Shown: piece after piece, positions 18,485 through 50,245 of the stretch
Layout: each line of letters opens with the position of its first letter
Position numbering within the stretch: the first letter of the stretch is position 1
Source: Oscillospiraceae bacterium
GTDB lineage: Bacteria; Bacillota; Clostridia; Oscillospirales; Oscillospiraceae
Direction: 5' to 3'
Assembly: GCA_017458065.1 (NCBI GenBank)
Contig: JAFTGD010000042.1
Location: forward strand, 208,896-272,895
Length of the DNA: 64,000 bases
The notes under the pieces: model-generated
What the model was told of the DNA's origin: nothing
Databases searched by the model: none
The model's input: the letters and a program-made list of their open reading frames with translations, nothing else
Program-made: the position numbers and the translations under genes

Positions 18485-19357
18485 TTATTCCTCGTGAAAA
18501 CTCGATGCGTTTTCTTCCTCGCGAAACTGCTCCAGAAAACTGTGCATCTCGCCGTTCGATTTGTAGCCGGGGAAGGTGTCAAGATGTACGGCGTGGATGG
18601 CGTTAAAGATGCTGCGGTCGATGTTGGGGTTGTCTTTGCGCAGTCGGCGGATCAGGATTTTCATCTCCTTGCGCTTGCTGCCGCCGGAATCATCGTCCGG
18701 AAGGGAGCAGTTCTCCGTAAACCGGCAGGCGCACTGGATGAAATCCAGCTCGTTATACCGTTTCCAGGCCAGGATATCTTCCTCATGGACGCAGTAGAGC
18801 GGACGGATCAGCGTCATGCCCTCAAAGTTCTGGCTGTGGAGCTTTGGCAGCATCGCCTGCAGCTGGGATCCGTAAAACATGCTCATCAGCGCCGTCTCGA
18901 TCACGTCGCTCAGATGGTGGCCCAGGGCGATCTTGTTGCAGCCCAGCTCCTTTGCCTTGCTGTAGAGATAGCCGCGGCGCATCCTGGCGCAGAGATAGCA
19001 GGGCGAGCCGTCCACCGAGGCGGTCACGTCAAAAATGTCGGTGTCGAAAATCTGGATCGGGATGTTCAGCAGCTTCGCGTTGTCTTCAACCTTTTTCCGG
19101 TTATACTCATTGTAGCCCGGGTCCATCACCAGAAAGACCAGCTCAAAGGGCACGTCGCTGTGACGCTGCAGCATCTGCAGCAGCTTGGCGTCCAGAAACG
19201 AGTCCTTTCCGCCCGAGATGCAGACGGCGATCCGGTCTCCTTCCTGGATCAGCTCGTACTGTTTGACGGCGTTGATAAACGGCCGCCAGATCGTCTTGCG
19301 GAATTTCTTGTTGATGCTCTGCTCCACAAGCTGGTATTTTTCCAATTCTCTGCTCAT
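18485..19357 (-). CDS. TtcA-like tRNA 2-thiolation protein
   Basis: A 290-residue PP-loop ATPase. The ATP-binding motif ISGGKDSFLD lies near residue 45. A CxxC pair (SPCYLCARMRRGYLY) and a further cysteine (KELGCNKIALGHH) fit iron-sulfur binding as in TtcA, which thiolates cytidine 32 of tRNA. A HHLSDVIET motif is the family signature. The start overlaps the tcdA stop by four bases (ATGA), so the two are co-translated. Another PP-loop substrate cannot be excluded. Confidence 0.85.
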   Translation of the reverse strand: MSRELEKYQLVEQSINKKFRKTIWRPFINAVKQYELIQEGDRIAVCISGGKDSFLDAKLLQMLQRHSDVPFELVFLVMDPGYNEYNRKKVEDNAKLLNIPIQIFDTDIFDVTASVDGSPCYLCARMRRGYLYSKAKELGCNKIALGHHLSDVIETALMSMFYGSQLQAMLPKLHSQNFEGMTLIRPLYCVHEEDILAWKRYNELDFIQCACRFTENCSLPDDDSGGSKRKEMKILIRRLRKDNPNIDRSIFNAIHAVHLDTFPGYKSNGEMHSFLEQFREEENASSFHEE

Positions 19358-43771: not shown

Positions 43772-44887
43772 TCAGTCGTTGTCTCTCAGGCGCACCGGAA
43801 GCACCATATAGAGATACGAGCTTCCCTCCGCGCCCTCGATCACAATCGGGGCGGACGGGGTGTTCATCGAAACCCGGACCTTCTCGTCGCTCGCCGCCTT
43901 CAGCGCGTCCATAAAGTAGCGGTCGTTGAAGCCGATGCGCATGCCGTCGCCGCTTCCCTCGCAGAGGCAGCTGTCCTCCGCGTGGCCGAAGGGCGTCGTG
44001 CAGTAGAACTGGAGCTCGCCCTGCTCCACCACCATCTTGACCGGGGAGGTCTGCTTGTCCTTGATGACCAGCGAAATACGGTCGATCACACGGATCAGCT
44101 CGTCCCGCTCGACGATGATCTCATAGCGGAAGGTGGACGGGATGGACTTTCTGTAGTTCATGAACTCCCCTTCCAGACGGCGGGTGATCAGGACGGTATT
44201 CCCGATCTCAAATGAGGCATGCTTGTCGCCCAGGGCGATCATGACCTCGTCCGTCTTGTCCGCGCTGCAGAGGCGCTCCACCTCGCTCAGCGAGGCGCCG
44301 GGGATGACAAAGGTGCAGGGGTTCATATTAGCGTTTTCCATCTGCTCGCTGCGTTTTGCAAGGCGGTAGCCGTCCACCGCCACCAGCGTCAGGTCGCTGT
44401 TTCCGACCTCAAACAAAACGCCCATGTAGAGCGGTCTCGACTCGGAGGTGGAGACTGAGAAAATCGTCTGGTTGATCATGTTCTTCAGGATGTTCTCCGG
44501 GATGCCGATGTTCTGCACCGCGTCCACAACGTTCAGCTCCGGGAAGCTCTCCGGATCCAGACCCATCACGTGAAACTCCGACTTGCCGCAGCGGATCGTG
44601 GTGGCGAAGCTCTCGTCCGCTTCGATGCTGACCATGCCGTCCGGCAGGCGGCGGACCAGCTCGCCGAGGAAGCGCGCCGGGATCACGATGCAGCCGCCTT
44701 CCAGCACGCTGCAGTCCAGCGTGGTGTAGATGCCGATCCGGGTATCGTAGGCTGTCAGCTTCAGCCCGTCGCGGTTGGCTTCAAACAGGATGCCCTCCAG
44801 TGCGGGGATCGGGCTCTTGGACGGGGCGGCACGGGAGACGTTGTTGACGGCGATCTGAAGATCCTTTTTCTCGCATCTGATTTTCAA
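43772..44887 (-). CDS. dnaN: DNA polymerase III beta clamp
   Basis: A 371-residue sliding clamp with three repeated domains. It starts with MKIRCEKKDLQIAVNNVSRA and ends with YLYMVLPVRLRDND. It keeps the polymerase on DNA and is the target of Hda/Soj-type regulators. GAGGTG lies upstream of the start, and the AT-rich part of the origin comes right after that. Confidence 0.96.
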   Translation of the reverse strand: MKIRCEKKDLQIAVNNVSRAAPSKSPIPALEGILFEANRDGLKLTAYDTRIGIYTTLDCSVLEGGCIVIPARFLGELVRRLPDGMVSIEADESFATTIRCGKSEFHVMGLDPESFPELNVVDAVQNIGIPENILKNMINQTIFSVSTSESRPLYMGVLFEVGNSDLTLVAVDGYRLAKRSEQMENANMNPCTFVIPGASLSEVERLCSADKTDEVMIALGDKHASFEIGNTVLITRRLEGEFMNYRKSIPSTFRYEIIVERDELIRVIDRISLVIKDKQTSPVKMVVEQGELQFYCTTPFGHAEDSCLCEGSGDGMRIGFNDRYFMDALKAASDEKVRVSMNTPSAPIVIEGAEGSSYLYMVLPVRLRDND

Positions 44888-44895
44888 AAAAAATC

Positions 44896-45128
44896 ACCTC
44901 ATTAAAGAAAATATAATATATTTTTTTAGTAAAAGAATTAGTAGAGAAAAAAACTGTCGAAAACTCGCGACTGCCCGCATGGAACGGGACGAGTTGCGGT
45001 CTGTAAAAATGTTCAAAACTCTGTCGGAAATGTTGACAGTTTTGACGGAAAATTTGTGAACCGTCCGCTTTCGACTTTTGAACCGCAGGCTGTCGAAAAG
45101 AGGAGAGCCGCGGCCGGGGGAATAGAAA
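44896..45128. other. oriC: Probable oriC: AT-rich element, DnaA-trio run and variant DnaA boxes
   Basis: The gap between dnaN and dnaA holds, in order: an AT-only stretch (44901-44927); triplets TAG-TAA-AAG-AAT-TAG-TAG in one register (44927-44944), like DnaA-trios; then TGTCGAAAA (44955-44963 and 45091-45099), TGTCGGAAA (45022-45030), TGTTCAAAA (45010-45018), and CTTTCGACT (45068-45076, opposite strand). Order and orientation match the Bacillus subtilis basal unwinding system, except that boxes read TGTCGAAAA rather than TGTGGATAA or TGTGGAAAA. No canonical TTATCCACA is present. Confidence 0.7.
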
Positions 45129-46436
45129 TCAGCCTCCGGAGCTCGTCGTGATATTCGACGTGATGTCGCGGATAACGCCGGTCATGTCCTGGTCGCTGCG
45201 CATCAGGTCCTCAATCTTGCGGATGGAGCTGAGGGCGGTGGTGTGGTTGCGGCCCAGCTCCTTGCCGATGTCGTTGAGCGAGAGGTTTGTGAGCTGCCGC
45301 ATCAGATACATGGCGATCTGCCTTGCCATGGCGGTGTTCTTGGAGCGGTTGTTGCCCTTGAGGTCCTCCGGCTTCAGGGAGTAATACTTGGCTGTTTCGC
45401 GGATGATGTTTTCCGGCTTCGGGATGTCGGTCCCCTTCTTGGTCACGTCGTCGATGGCGCGGTCCACGGAGGCGCGGGTGATGTCGCTGTTAAGGATCTC
45501 TTTATAGGCGGTCAGGCGCTTGATAACGCCCTCCAGCTGGCGGACATTGGCCGTGACGGAGGCGGCGATGTATTCAATGATGTCGTCAGGAAGGATCAGG
45601 CCGAGGCGAGTCGCCTTGTTACGGGCGATGGCCATCCTCGTCTCCAGATCGGGGGGCGCGATATCGGCCATGAGACCGCCCTCAAAGCGGGTCCTCAGCC
45701 GGTCGTCCAGCAGGGACATCTCCATCGGCGGACGGTCGGAGGTGATGACAATCTGGTGCCCGGCTTCATAGATGTAGTTGAAGGTGTGGAAAAACTCGAT
45801 CTGCGTGCTCTGCTTGCCGGCGATGAACTGGATATCGTCCACCAGGAAAAGGTCCACGTTGCGGTGCTTGTTGCGGAACTCCTCCGTTTTGCCCTCCTTG
45901 ATGGACTTGACCATTTCGTTGGTGAAATCGTCGCCCTTGATGTAGGAGATTTTCTTCTCCGGGAAGCGCTCGTGGATGGAGTGGCCGATGGCCCAGAGCA
46001 GGTGGGTCTTTCCGAGGCCGGAATTGCCGTAGATGAAGAGGGGGTTGTAGTTCTTGCCCGGGTTCTCGGCGACGGAGATGGCGGCCGCGTGGGCAAACTT
46101 GTTGGAGTTGCCGACGATAAAGTTGTCGAAGGTGTATCCGGCCATCTCCGGGAGAGGATCGTCGCCGGAAGGCTCCTTCTCATACTCCTCGTCCCCCACA
46201 AGGATCAGCAGGTCAAAGTCGCAGGCGAAGAGATCGGACAGGATCTTGGTAATGGTAGGGGAAAAGCGCTCAGAAATGATCTTCTTCTTGAATTCCGTCG
46301 GCGTACGGAGCACAAGCCGGCATTCTTCCAGCTCCACCGGCTCACAGTCGGTGAACCAGGTGTTGATGGCCGTCGGCGTCAGCTGTGTGGAGAGAATATG
46401 TTTGATTTCATTCCAGATGTCCATCAGAGAATTCAC
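45129..46436 (-). CDS. dnaA: Chromosomal replication initiator DnaA
   Basis: A 435-residue initiator. Domain I is WNEIKHILSTQLTPTAINTWF, domain II is short, and the AAA+ core has Walker A FIYGNSGLGKTHLL and Walker B VDLFLVDDIQFI. Domain IV ends with a helix-turn-helix reading LGRNHTTALSSIRKIE. The usual motif is GRDHTT; here the aspartate that contacts bases in E. coli DnaA is Asn (codon 45246-45248). The GTG at 46436 is preferred because GGAAGGGGG precedes it; an ATG at 46424 is possible. Confidence 0.95.
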   Translation of the reverse strand: MNSLMDIWNEIKHILSTQLTPTAINTWFTDCEPVELEECRLVLRTPTEFKKKIISERFSPTITKILSDLFACDFDLLILVGDEEYEKEPSGDDPLPEMAGYTFDNFIVGNSNKFAHAAAISVAENPGKNYNPLFIYGNSGLGKTHLLWAIGHSIHERFPEKKISYIKGDDFTNEMVKSIKEGKTEEFRNKHRNVDLFLVDDIQFIAGKQSTQIEFFHTFNYIYEAGHQIVITSDRPPMEMSLLDDRLRTRFEGGLMADIAPPDLETRMAIARNKATRLGLILPDDIIEYIAASVTANVRQLEGVIKRLTAYKEILNSDITRASVDRAIDDVTKKGTDIPKPENIIRETAKYYSLKPEDLKGNNRSKNTAMARQIAMYLMRQLTNLSLNDIGKELGRNHTTALSSIRKIEDLMRSDQDMTGVIRDITSNITTSSGG

Positions 46437-46496
46437 GGACGGATCCCCCTTCCAAACCGGTGAAAAAAAGCGGCGCATTTCGGCCGTTATCATCGG

Positions 46497-46680: not shown

Positions 46681-47121
46681 TTACTTTTCCTGTTTCTTCA
46701 GCTCGTCCAGGATAGCCGCGAGCAGATCTTCGGAAGTGGGCTTCGGCTCTTCCTCTTCGACAGGGGCGGCTTCCTCTTCCTGCTTCTTGGCCAGCTTCTT
46801 GGCGGCTTCGGCGGCCTTGTTGGCGGCCTTCATGATGGAGAAGATGACCAGCGCGATGACGAGGAAGTTGATCACGGCGCCGATGAAGGTTCCAAGACCC
46901 AGGACGATGGCCTCAGAGTCGGCCGTCGCGGCGCGCAGGGTGATGTTCAGGGCATCGGTGTTCGGGCTCTTGAAAATGGCCGCCAGAAGCGGGGTGATGA
47001 CGTCGGCAACCAGCGAATTGGTGATGGCGCCGAACGCGCCGCCTATGACAACACCGATTGCCATCTGCAGTGCATTGCCGCGGGCAATGAACTCTTTGAA
47101 CTCCTCAATGAACTTTTTCAT
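46681..47121 (-). CDS. mscL: Large-conductance mechanosensitive channel
   Basis: A 146-residue membrane protein. The first helix has the MscL signature EFKEFIARGNALQMAIGVVIGGAFGAITNSLVADVITPLL, and a second helix (FLVIALVIFSIMKA) is followed by a long acidic C-terminal bundle. It opens under osmotic downshock. It is transcribed toward dnaA and ends at its own terminator. Confidence 0.95.
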   Translation of the reverse strand: MKKFIEEFKEFIARGNALQMAIGVVIGGAFGAITNSLVADVITPLLAAIFKSPNTDALNITLRAATADSEAIVLGLGTFIGAVINFLVIALVIFSIMKAANKAAEAAKKLAKKQEEEAAPVEEEEPKPTSEDLLAAILDELKKQEK

Positions 47122-47168
47122 GGATAATACCTCTCTTTCTATATTTTTACGGTTTCAAAACCGCAAAT

Positions 47169-48488
47169 TTACTTTTTCGGGACCAGAAGCTTTGTGCCGC
47201 CCATATACGGCCAGAGCACTTCCGGAATGGTGACGCTGCCGTCGGCCTGGAGGTGATTCTCCAGGAAGGCGATAAGCATGCGCGGCGGCGCGACGACGGT
47301 GTTGTTAAGGGTGTGCGGGAGATAGGTCTTGCCGTCCTCTCCCTTGACGCGGATGTTCAGGCGGCGGGCCTGGGCGTCGGACAGGTTGGAGCAGGAGCAG
47401 ACCTCAAAGTACTTCTGCTGTCTCGGGGACCAGGCTTCGATGTCGCAGGACTTGACCTTCAGGTCCGCCAGGTCGCCGGAGCAGCACTCCAGCTGACGCA
47501 CGGGGATCTCCATACTGCGGAAGAGCTCGACGCTGAAGCGCCACATCTTCTCGTACCAGGCCATCGAATCCTCCGGCTTGCAGACGACGATCATCTCCTG
47601 CTTTTCAAACTGGTGGATGCGGTAAACACCGCGCTCCTCAATGCCGTGGGCGCCCTTCTCCTTGCGGAAGCAGGGTGAATAGCTGGTCAGGGTTTGGGGC
47701 AGCTGGTCCTCGGTCAGGGTCTCGCCGATGAACTTGCCGATCATGGAGTGCTCGGAAGTGCCGATCAGATAGAGATCCTCCCCTTCGATCTTGTACATCA
47801 TAGCGTCCATGTCGTTCTGGCTCATGACGCCCTCCACCACGTTGCCGTGGATCATAAAGGGCGGGATGCAGTAGGTGAAGCCCTTGTTGATCATAAAGTC
47901 GCGGGCGTAGGCCAGCACGGCGGAGTGCAGGCGGGCGATGTCGCCCATGAGATAGTAGAAGCCGTTGCCGGAGGTCCTGCCGGCGGCGTCCATGTCGACG
48001 CCGTTGAAGCGGGCCATGATGTCCGTGTGATAGGGGATCTCATAATCGGGCACGACCGGCTCGCCGAAGCGCTCGACCTCGACGTTGCAGCTGTCGTCCG
48101 GTCCCAGCGGGACGGAGGAATCGATGATATTCGGGATCAGGAGCATCCGTTTGCGGATCTCGGCGGCATACTCGTCCTCCAGCTTCTCCAGCTCCGCCAG
48201 GCGGTCGTCATTTGCCTTGACGGCGGCCATATTGGCGTCGATCTCGGCCTGGATGGCGGCCTTCTCCTCCTCGGAAGCCTTCTTCAGCTTGCCGAAGAGC
48301 GGACCGTTTGCCTTGCTCAGCTTGTTCTTCTGGGCGCGCAGATCGCTGGCCTCGGTGATGGCGGCGCGGTTTTTGGCATCCAGCTCAATGACCTCGTCGA
48401 CCATGGGGAGCTTGGCGTCCTGATATTTCTTGCGGATGTTCTCCTTGACGATGTCCGGGTTCTCCCGGATGAATCTGATGTCCAGCAT
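47169..48488 (-). CDS. serS: Seryl-tRNA synthetase
   Basis: A 439-residue class II synthetase. An N-terminal coiled coil (residues 30-105) is followed by the catalytic core: motif 2 SPCFRKEKGAHGIEERGVYRIHQF and motif 3 region LPHTLNNTVVAPPRMLIAFLENH. Only 52 bases separate it from parB, too few for a T-box leader. Confidence 0.96.
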   Translation of the reverse strand: MLDIRFIRENPDIVKENIRKKYQDAKLPMVDEVIELDAKNRAAITEASDLRAQKNKLSKANGPLFGKLKKASEEEKAAIQAEIDANMAAVKANDDRLAELEKLEDEYAAEIRKRMLLIPNIIDSSVPLGPDDSCNVEVERFGEPVVPDYEIPYHTDIMARFNGVDMDAAGRTSGNGFYYLMGDIARLHSAVLAYARDFMINKGFTYCIPPFMIHGNVVEGVMSQNDMDAMMYKIEGEDLYLIGTSEHSMIGKFIGETLTEDQLPQTLTSYSPCFRKEKGAHGIEERGVYRIHQFEKQEMIVVCKPEDSMAWYEKMWRFSVELFRSMEIPVRQLECCSGDLADLKVKSCDIEAWSPRQQKYFEVCSCSNLSDAQARRLNIRVKGEDGKTYLPHTLNNTVVAPPRMLIAFLENHLQADGSVTIPEVLWPYMGGTKLLVPKK

Positions 48489-48540
48489 GGTGTTCTCCTT
48501 CTATGTTCAGTCTTTTTCCTTCTTATTGATGACGGGTAGC

Positions 48541-49419
48541 TCAGTCCTTCAGGGCCCGCAGAGCGGCGATGAGGGCTTCCCTGTCGTCTGGGTTGTCGTA
48601 AAACAGTTCGATCTTGCCGCGGCTGTTTTTCTCCGTGAGCGTGACCCGGCGTCCCAGCAGCGATGTGAGCTCCTGGCCAAGTTCCGCCGCATAGTCCACC
48701 TCATCATTGACCTCCGGCGTCTCGCCTGCCGCAGCCCGGGCCGCTTCCTTCTTCAGCCGTGAGACCAGCTGTTCGGTTCTCCGGACGGAGAGGACCTTTT
48801 CCAGCACCTGCTCGGCGGCCTTCTTCTGCAGGGACGGGTCCTCCAGCGAAAGCAGCGTTCTCGCATGCCCGGCGGAGAGCTCGCCGTTTTCCACAAGCTC
48901 TGCAACCGGCGCGCTGAGATTCAGAAGACGCAGCGCGTTTGCCACGGCGGAGCGGGACTTACCGACGCCGGCGGCCGCTTCCTCCTGGGTCAGGGCGTAA
49001 TCCTGCATCAGCTTCTGATAGCCTCTCGCCTCTTCCATGGGGTTGAGGTCCTCGCGCTGGAGGTTCTCTACCAGCGCCAGCTCTGCAACGCTCTGGTCGT
49101 CCGCCTGGAGCACTCGGACCGGAATCTCCTGAAGTCCGGCCAGTCGGGCCGCGCGCCAGCGGCGCTCGCCGGCAATGATCTGATAGTCTCCTGAATCCAG
49201 ACGGCGTACGATCACCGGCTGGATCATCCCGTGGCGGGAGATGGACGAGGCCAGATCCTGCAGGCGTTCCTCGTCAAAATGGCCTCTCGGCTGGTCTTCC
49301 CTGGGCTCCACCTTCGCGATGGGCAGGGTCATCAGCTCTTCCTCCTGGAGCATCTGAAACTCCGGTCCGAAGAGCGCCTCCAGCCCGATACCGAGACCTC
49401 TTTTTTCTTTCAGTGCCAT
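48541..49419 (-). CDS. parB: Chromosome-partitioning protein ParB (Spo0J-like)
   Basis: A 292-residue CTPase and DNA-binding clamp. It opens with KRGLGIGLEALFG and has the CTP-binding motif AGERRWRAARLAGL and a helix-turn-helix (LTQEEAAAGVGKSRSAVANALRLL). It would load at the parS sites at 50246-50408 and slide along DNA. It overlaps parA by ten bases. Confidence 0.93.
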   Translation of the reverse strand: MALKEKRGLGIGLEALFGPEFQMLQEEELMTLPIAKVEPREDQPRGHFDEERLQDLASSISRHGMIQPVIVRRLDSGDYQIIAGERRWRAARLAGLQEIPVRVLQADDQSVAELALVENLQREDLNPMEEARGYQKLMQDYALTQEEAAAGVGKSRSAVANALRLLNLSAPVAELVENGELSAGHARTLLSLEDPSLQKKAAEQVLEKVLSVRRTEQLVSRLKKEAARAAAGETPEVNDEVDYAAELGQELTSLLGRRVTLTEKNSRGKIELFYDNPDDREALIAALRALKD

Positions 49420-50183
49420 GATGTTTTCCCTTCGCTTTTGCTCAGAAATTCCTCCGCCAGCGCCATATAGGCCTTGCTCCCCTTGTTGCTCCGGTCGTAC
49501 ACCACGCCAGGGAGCCCGTGGCTGGGCGCCTCGGAGAGACGGACCGTGCGGGGGATCACCGTCTGATAGACCTTGTCCGGCATGAAGCGCCGCAGCTCGT
49601 TCTCCACCTGCAGAGTCAGGTTTGCTCTCGCGTCATACATCGTGAGGAGGATCCCCTCAATGTGCAGGCGCCGGTTCAGGCGGGAGGAACAGAGACGGAT
49701 GCTGCTGATGAGATCCGCGATGCCTTCGAGCGCGTAATACTCGCACTGCATCGGGATGAGGACGCTGTCCGCCGCGGCCAGAGCGTTCACCGTGATGAGC
49801 TCCAGCGAGGGAGGACAGTCCAGAAACATGTAGTCGTACTCGGTATAGAGCCGCTGGAGCGCCGAATAGAGAACCTTCTCGCGGTTCGGCCGCGAGATCA
49901 GCTCCACCGTCGCCGCGGCAAATTCCCTGCCGCTGGGGATCACGTCCCCGTATTTGGTATGGACGACGCAGTCCTCGCTGGGCACGTCGTGGATCATCAT
50001 GTCATAGATGTTGGGGGACTGGCTCTTCTTCACGCCCATGCCGGAGCTGGCGTTCCCCTGTGGATCGCAGTCCACCAGCAGAACCCGCTTTCCCAGCGCG
50101 GTCAGCGCGGCGCAGAGATTGACGCAGCTTGTTGTTTTACCCACTCCGCCCTTCTGGTTGGCGAAAGCGATGATTTTTGCCAT
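49410..50183 (-). CDS. parA: Chromosome-partitioning ATPase ParA (Soj-like)
   Basis: A 257-residue deviant Walker ATPase. The motif FANQKGGVGKTTSCVNL is at the N-terminus, with DCDPQGNASSGMG and the Walker B DYMFLDCPPSLEL. It works with ParB in segregation and may touch DnaA activity as Soj does. The ATG at 50183 is preferred because AGGAG precedes it; two ATGs 27-30 bases upstream lack a site. Confidence 0.94.
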   Translation of the reverse strand: MAKIIAFANQKGGVGKTTSCVNLCAALTALGKRVLLVDCDPQGNASSGMGVKKSQSPNIYDMMIHDVPSEDCVVHTKYGDVIPSGREFAAATVELISRPNREKVLYSALQRLYTEYDYMFLDCPPSLELITVNALAAADSVLIPMQCEYYALEGIADLISSIRLCSSRLNRRLHIEGILLTMYDARANLTLQVENELRRFMPDKVYQTVIPRTVRLSEAPSHGLPGVVYDRSNKGSKAYMALAEEFLSKSEGKTSWH

Positions 50184-50245
50184 AGGTTTCAGAATCTCCT
50201 TTGAAATCATCATTGAATTATACCAGCATTCGATGTCAAATGCAA

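Follow-up and report, generated by a model that had tools for sequence, protein, structure and literature searches.

Putative DnaA boxes with a purine at position 6 in a clade of Oscillospiraceae whose DnaA carries Asn433

The 64-kb stretch of Oscillospiraceae DNA analyzed here, termed the window, carries dnaN (43772..44887) and dnaA (45129..46493) on its minus strand. The 241-bp intergenic gap that runs, in the same orientation, from the dnaN start to the dnaA stop (44888..45128) is a putative oriC. The likely start of dnaA is an ATG at 46424, giving a protein of 431 amino acids with a Bac_DnaA_C domain (PF08299, E = 1.3e-26) that can be aligned with 1j1v and 3pvp. Sequence and alignment place an Asn codon of this gene at 45246..45248 (minus strand), the position of E. 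coli Asp433, exactly where an earlier sequence-only reading had located it. Upstream of dnaA, and on the same strand, lie an mscL-like gene, serS, parB and parA (46681-50213; names from translations). The start of dnaN is a TTG (44885-44887), and a TTG start with a conserved GAGG ribosome-binding site is predicted in all nine gaps of the clade defined below (the window, L027, L050, L057, L058, L059, L062, L147 and L172).

From the dnaN side, the gap begins with an AT-rich stretch (44908..44926) that may serve as the unwinding element and that lies at a place matched by AT-rich sequence in an alignment of the clade. On the plus strand there follow six DnaA-trios, TAG TAA AAG AAT TAG TAG (44927..44944), all in one register and all with a middle A, the outer ones of which are largely kept in the clade alignment. 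A 10-nt spacer (44945..44954) then leads to a trio-adjacent DnaA box, TGTCGAAAA (44955..44963; TTTTCGACA in gene orientation), which forms a conserved island in that alignment. Further along the plus strand lie a variant box, TGTTCAAAA (45010..45018), whose gene-orientation form TTTTGAACA occurs in seven of the nine clade gaps including that of the window, and a second variant, TGTCGGAAA (45022..45030; TTTCCGACA), a word also found in L059. These are followed by a weak box-like site with two mismatches to TTWTCNACA, TGTTGACAG (45031..45039; CTGTCAACA), and by a second exact copy of TGTCGAAAA (45091..45099).

The gap has the layout of a basal-unwinding-type origin, namely trios, a 10-nt spacer and a box, and the sequence-only reading had described this arrangement with correct coordinates. 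The sections of PMC8287927 that set out rules for basal unwinding ask for at least three middle-A trios and a box with at most two mismatches to TTATCCACA no more than 16 bp from the trios, and describe a peak of trio-box spacers at 10-13 bp. The six trios of the window lie within these rules, as does its box TTTTCGACA, which has two mismatches to TTATCCACA and a spacer of 10. Element order, spacer length, middle-A trios and the AT-rich stretch are all shared with the Bacillus subtilis basal unwinding system, whereas the window has TTTTCGACA in place of TTATCCACA and has no clear second tandem box. By eye, no good box abuts the first one, and the next boxes are at least 46 bp away; a second tandem box is predicted in 57% of genomes in the same sections of PMC8287927.

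Two copies of TGTCGAAAA within a gap of this size are far from a chance expectation. The word is expected 0.42 times per 64 kb, or about 0.0016 times per 241 bp, such that the Poisson probability of two copies in the gap is about 1e-6. The whole genome (3.6 Mb) has 28 copies, compared with 66 for the reversed pattern, and the word is thus not common in general. The sequence-only reading had TGTCGAAAA occurring exactly twice and the canonical box absent. Both statements are true of the gap and neither of the window, in which a third TGTCGAAAA lies at 19042 and TGTGGAWAA is present at 45785 and 48887, both outside the gap and near chance (expected 0.71). One other close pair of TGTCGAAAA in the genome (G000:C20 200830/200997; L241:1431-1606) brackets a gene for tRNA-Ser and is likely incidental.

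For comparison we assembled 341 loci from the genus, the order and named genome contigs, of which 287 have domain IV and 270 a dnaA-dnaN gap, yielding 257 distinct gaps. The clade is defined as the nine distinct gaps whose DnaA is at least 79% identical to the window DnaA, and among its named members are Oscillospiraceae bacterium RGIG3778, from roe deer abomasum, and RGIG7103, from water buffalo abomasum. "Genus" here means a DnaA at least 61% identical to that of the window, which gives 97 gaps (the nine of the clade and 88 others at 61-79%) and also admits four named non-clade loci (L063-L066) whose genus membership is assumed by identity. The genus set came from 102 genomes searched, 98 of them with a domain IV match and 94 fetched (G067, G087, G090 and G113 being left out); in the order set, 276 genomes had a DnaA match, and we read those given as loci plus 60 picked for diversity. 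Exact sites are those conforming to TTDTCNACA, the narrower definition is TTWTCNACA, and R-type sites are TTWTCRACA. E. coli residue numbers were carried over by alignment from residue 432 and are rough away from the helix. A tree built by a quick method from domain III, with domain IV excluded, holds 105 of 108 rows (domain III was unusable in L158, L296 and L298) and carries long-branch warnings for outgroups, e.g. L074. The nine clade DnaAs form one group on this tree (SH-aLRT 94).

The unusual box is common to the clade and not private to the window genome. Position 6 of the exact sites in the nine clade gaps is G 18 times, A 10 times and never C or T, whereas the 88 other genus gaps have C 145, A 81, G 3 and T 1; grouped as C/A versus G/T, clade and others differ with a Fisher p of about 4e-17 over sites that are not independent. 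Under the narrower definition the counts are G 16 and A 10 for the clade and C 130, A 75, G 2 and T 1 for the others, and base-shuffled clade gaps contain about 0.4 such sites in total. The consensus for E. coli is given as TTWTNCACA in the relevant lines of PMC7561715, and this canonical C at position 6 is found in 0 of the 28 exact sites of the clade. The trio-adjacent box has G in eight clade gaps and A in one, compared with C in 56, A in 16, G in none and no call in 16 of the other 88. An exact G site is present in seven of the nine clade gaps; in L050 the exact sites are A only and the G site has one mismatch, and L059 has only TTTTCGACC and TTTCCGACA, with one mismatch each. Outside the clade, a C site is present in 71 of the 88 genus gaps, 16 have A only, and two have any G (L171, G alone; L194, C and G). 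Position 5 is G in 11 and C in 26 cases in the clade versus G in 8 and C in 210 in the others. The related Oscillospiraceae resemble the clade in placing their boxes in the dnaA-dnaN gap with a median spacer of 10, and differ from it in having C/A where the clade has A/G at position 6.

The nine clade gaps align poorly. Only a few islands stand out, mainly at the trio-adjacent box, at the outer trios and at the ribosome-binding site. Boxes without C are nonetheless several, at differing places and on both strands. This joint absence of C from boxes on both strands, despite the poor alignment of the gaps, argues for a change in the protein that reads them rather than for a single drifting site.

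More widely, G-type trio boxes were sought with patterns that require exact boxes beside CTACTA/TAGTAG and that miss other layouts. Twelve of 394 genomes in the order had a match, and tblastn of all 15 match loci placed only those of G000, G057 and G485 at dnaA-dnaN; G485 has TTTTCCACA nearer to the trios than its G-type match. In the class, 53 of 391 genomes had a match and, apart from G000's own, dnaA/dnaN was present at none of the 29 match loci and 8 further places checked.

GC skew in the window is weak and equivocal, being negative on both outer flanks, and the contig runs about 18.6 kb past dnaA. The window gap has two exact R-type sites, one short of the three-site clusters scored in relatives. 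In the long contigs of two clade relatives, G076:C16 (199,705 bp) and G110:C8 (153,508 bp), the minimum of cumulative GC skew in 10-kb bins falls at or next to the dnaA bin, and the gap is the only place where three exact R-type sites fall within one 300-bp span. Clusters of three C-type sites within 300 bp are absent from both contigs.

We consider it probable, judging from these sequence comparisons, that the gap is the chromosome origin and that DnaA-box specificity in the clade has changed from C/A to A/G at position 6, perhaps on a permissive Asn. As a property of the clade, the variant initiator specificity proposed in the sequence-only reading is well supported. If the specificity is switched, domain IV of the window protein should prefer TGTCGAAAA over TGTGGAAAA. 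On TTTTCNACA, the clade protein should likewise prefer A/G over C at position 6, and an RNHAT relative such as L017 should prefer C/A. A different and rather unlikely account is that specificity is relaxed and not switched, with a DnaA that accepts any of A, C and G at position 6 and clade origins that drifted to G/A. Such tolerance would suit the fact that A is common across the genus, and also the G sites of L171 and L194, both of which have an unshifted recognition helix. Nevertheless, a complete absence of C from the exact sites of nine diverged gaps is unexpected for drift under full tolerance. L171 (RNHATV), from the group that the tree sets beside the clade, is possibly an intermediate state: its sole exact sites are two copies of TGTCGAAAA, and the box nearest its trios is TTTCCCACA. 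Since L171 lacks the changes of the clade, G can occur without them.

Residue 433 is among the base-specific contacts named in the parts of two reports that deal with them (residues 399, 423, 432-435 and 438-439 in PMC5043019; R399, P423, D433, H434, T435 and H439 in PMC7561715). The sequence-only reading had proposed that Asp to Asn at this residue changed together with C to G in the box, and had suggested checking whether the box tracks Asp/Asn in the DnaA motif. The relatives contradict this pairing. Asn433 is present in 96 of the 97 genus gaps and in 87 of the 88 outside the clade, only two of which have any G site. Relatives that share the RNHTT motif keep non-G boxes as well: L044 (GRNHTT) has TTTTCCACA beside its trios, and of the seven relatives outside the clade that carry RNHTT, C sites occur in five and the other two have nothing but A. 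The domain III tree shows two changes at residue 433: one lies at the base of the genus or near it, and the other is a change to Asp in L140. Because L296 and L298, which have Asn and lie outside the genus, are not placed on the tree, Asn may be older still. The order on the tree is Asn433 first and the box shift later, on the one branch where residue 430 was lost and Val437 became Ala/Thr.

Replacement of Asp433 by Asn alone, as the event that re-specified position 6 from C to G, is accordingly not a sufficient cause, given that relatives with Asn keep C/A boxes, and we rate it as very improbable. Across all 257 gaps, the 138 with Asp have C 213, A 68, G 3 and T 2, and the 110 with Asn have C 148, A 106, G 23 and T 1, with G-containing gaps numbering 11 of 110 for Asn (seven of them from the clade) versus 3 of 138 for Asp. 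Fourteen Asn gaps outside the genus have C 4, A 16 and G 2, and two distant Asn genomes, L046 and L090, have a trio-adjacent G box. One-mismatch G boxes adjoin the trios of two Asp DnaAs as well (L077 and L303). Once the clade is removed, however, G occupies 5 of 250 Asn sites versus 3 of 286 Asp sites (Fisher p = 0.48). Without the clade, A relative to C is commoner with Asn than with Asp (p = 0.0002, uncorrected for kinship), and phylogenetically independent pairs scored with TTDTNNACA (7 supported) lean toward a purine with Asn (means of 2.9 same and 0.3 opposite) and are not significant. Asn433 may loosen position 6 without giving G by itself. Nine gaps have His at this residue (L055, L079, L288, L289, L290, L323, L326, L327 and L339), and C predominates at their exact sites (C 13, A 3, G 1).

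Least probable of all is selection on the TCGA core for some other reason, e.g. methylation or a regulator site over the boxes, which would fit the 29 occurrences in the nine clade gaps versus 5 expected from base shuffles but is opposed by the box-like context of 25 of the 29 (loose rule) and by the recurrence of box-like A sites without TCGA (TTTTCAACA, TTTTGAACA).

Several other changes in domain IV separate the clade from the 88 other genus gaps entirely or almost without overlap: Asn/Val in place of Gln397, Leu in place of Tyr/Phe429, the loss of residue 430, and Ala (eight) or Thr (one) in place of Val437. In the clade, Lys427, Thr435, Lys395, Gln416 and Thr455 are also fixed or almost fixed, and few DnaAs outside it have them. 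The deletion at 430 removes one residue before the recognition helix and leaves a short turn. This short turn alone is rejected as the cause, as it occurs with Asp in 36 gaps that have C 90, A 14, T 2 and G 0; it also occurs with Asn in four gaps outside the clade, where exact sites are found only in L011 (A 5). Two Asp DnaAs outside the clade have Ala/Thr437: L053, with C 3 and A 1, and L304, with A 1. The identity of residue 435, Ala as opposed to Ser/Thr, was considered as a predictor of A or C. The non-clade genus gaps show a raw trend only (NHA, C 126 and A 47; NHS, C 7 and A 22; NHT, C 11 and A 11), and independent pairs are not significant. A combination of changes is the simplest reading, with none singly explaining the shift. 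The nine clade gaps amount to one evolutionary event, so the link between box and protein depends on one branch, on which several domain IV changes were fixed, and causes are not separable there from passengers.

In the switched-specificity reading, domain IV of the clade DnaA would bind boxes of the form TTWT[C/G][A/G]ACA, and the box set off from the trios by 10 nt would load DnaA as a filament on the trio strand and so open the AT-rich stretch. The preference at position 6 would have moved from C/A to A/G in the ancestor of nine gut Oscillospiraceae lineages, with boxes across the origin following. Asn433, already there before the shift, may have been permissive, and the leading candidates for the step that came later are the shorter turn ahead of the recognition helix and the replacement of Val437 by Ala/Thr. 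What C and A have in common in the major groove is an amino group; A and G are both purines. The later step perhaps shifted Asn433 to where it reads the N7 of a purine. A more specific version, which we put forward tentatively and hold to be somewhat less than an even prospect, is stepwise epistatic re-coding in one lineage: Asn433 spread without a box change, the short turn and Val437Ala then moved the recognition helix to read a purine in place of a base bearing an amino group, and the boxes across the origin were rewritten, with earlier states still kept by close relatives.

DnaA is an essential protein whose box is commonly regarded as nearly fixed. A protein-site pair that seems to have co-changed within a single genus, and that has sequenced relatives before and after the step, makes the order of mutations in an essential protein-DNA code testable in domain IV variants. 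Lineage-specific box changes are also known from Thermotoga maritima (AAACCTACCACC) and from epsilonproteobacteria (T at position 5); these concern other box positions, whereas the clade shift is at position 6, within one genus and beside close unshifted relatives. Passages of PMC6669920 and PMC5043019 report or suggest domain IV differences as the cause of diverged boxes, and the former describes the T. maritima box and a domain IV chimera. Among the matches listed from open-licence literature, there was no report of TTTTCGACA or of TGTCGAAA/TTTCGACA (the latter judged by title) as a DnaA box. Origin finders that score TTATCCACA would under-call the origins of this clade. One further gap, L052, has trios and box on the strand opposite to the usual one when inspected by eye, which may mean that its unwinding module is flipped with respect to dnaA and dnaN.
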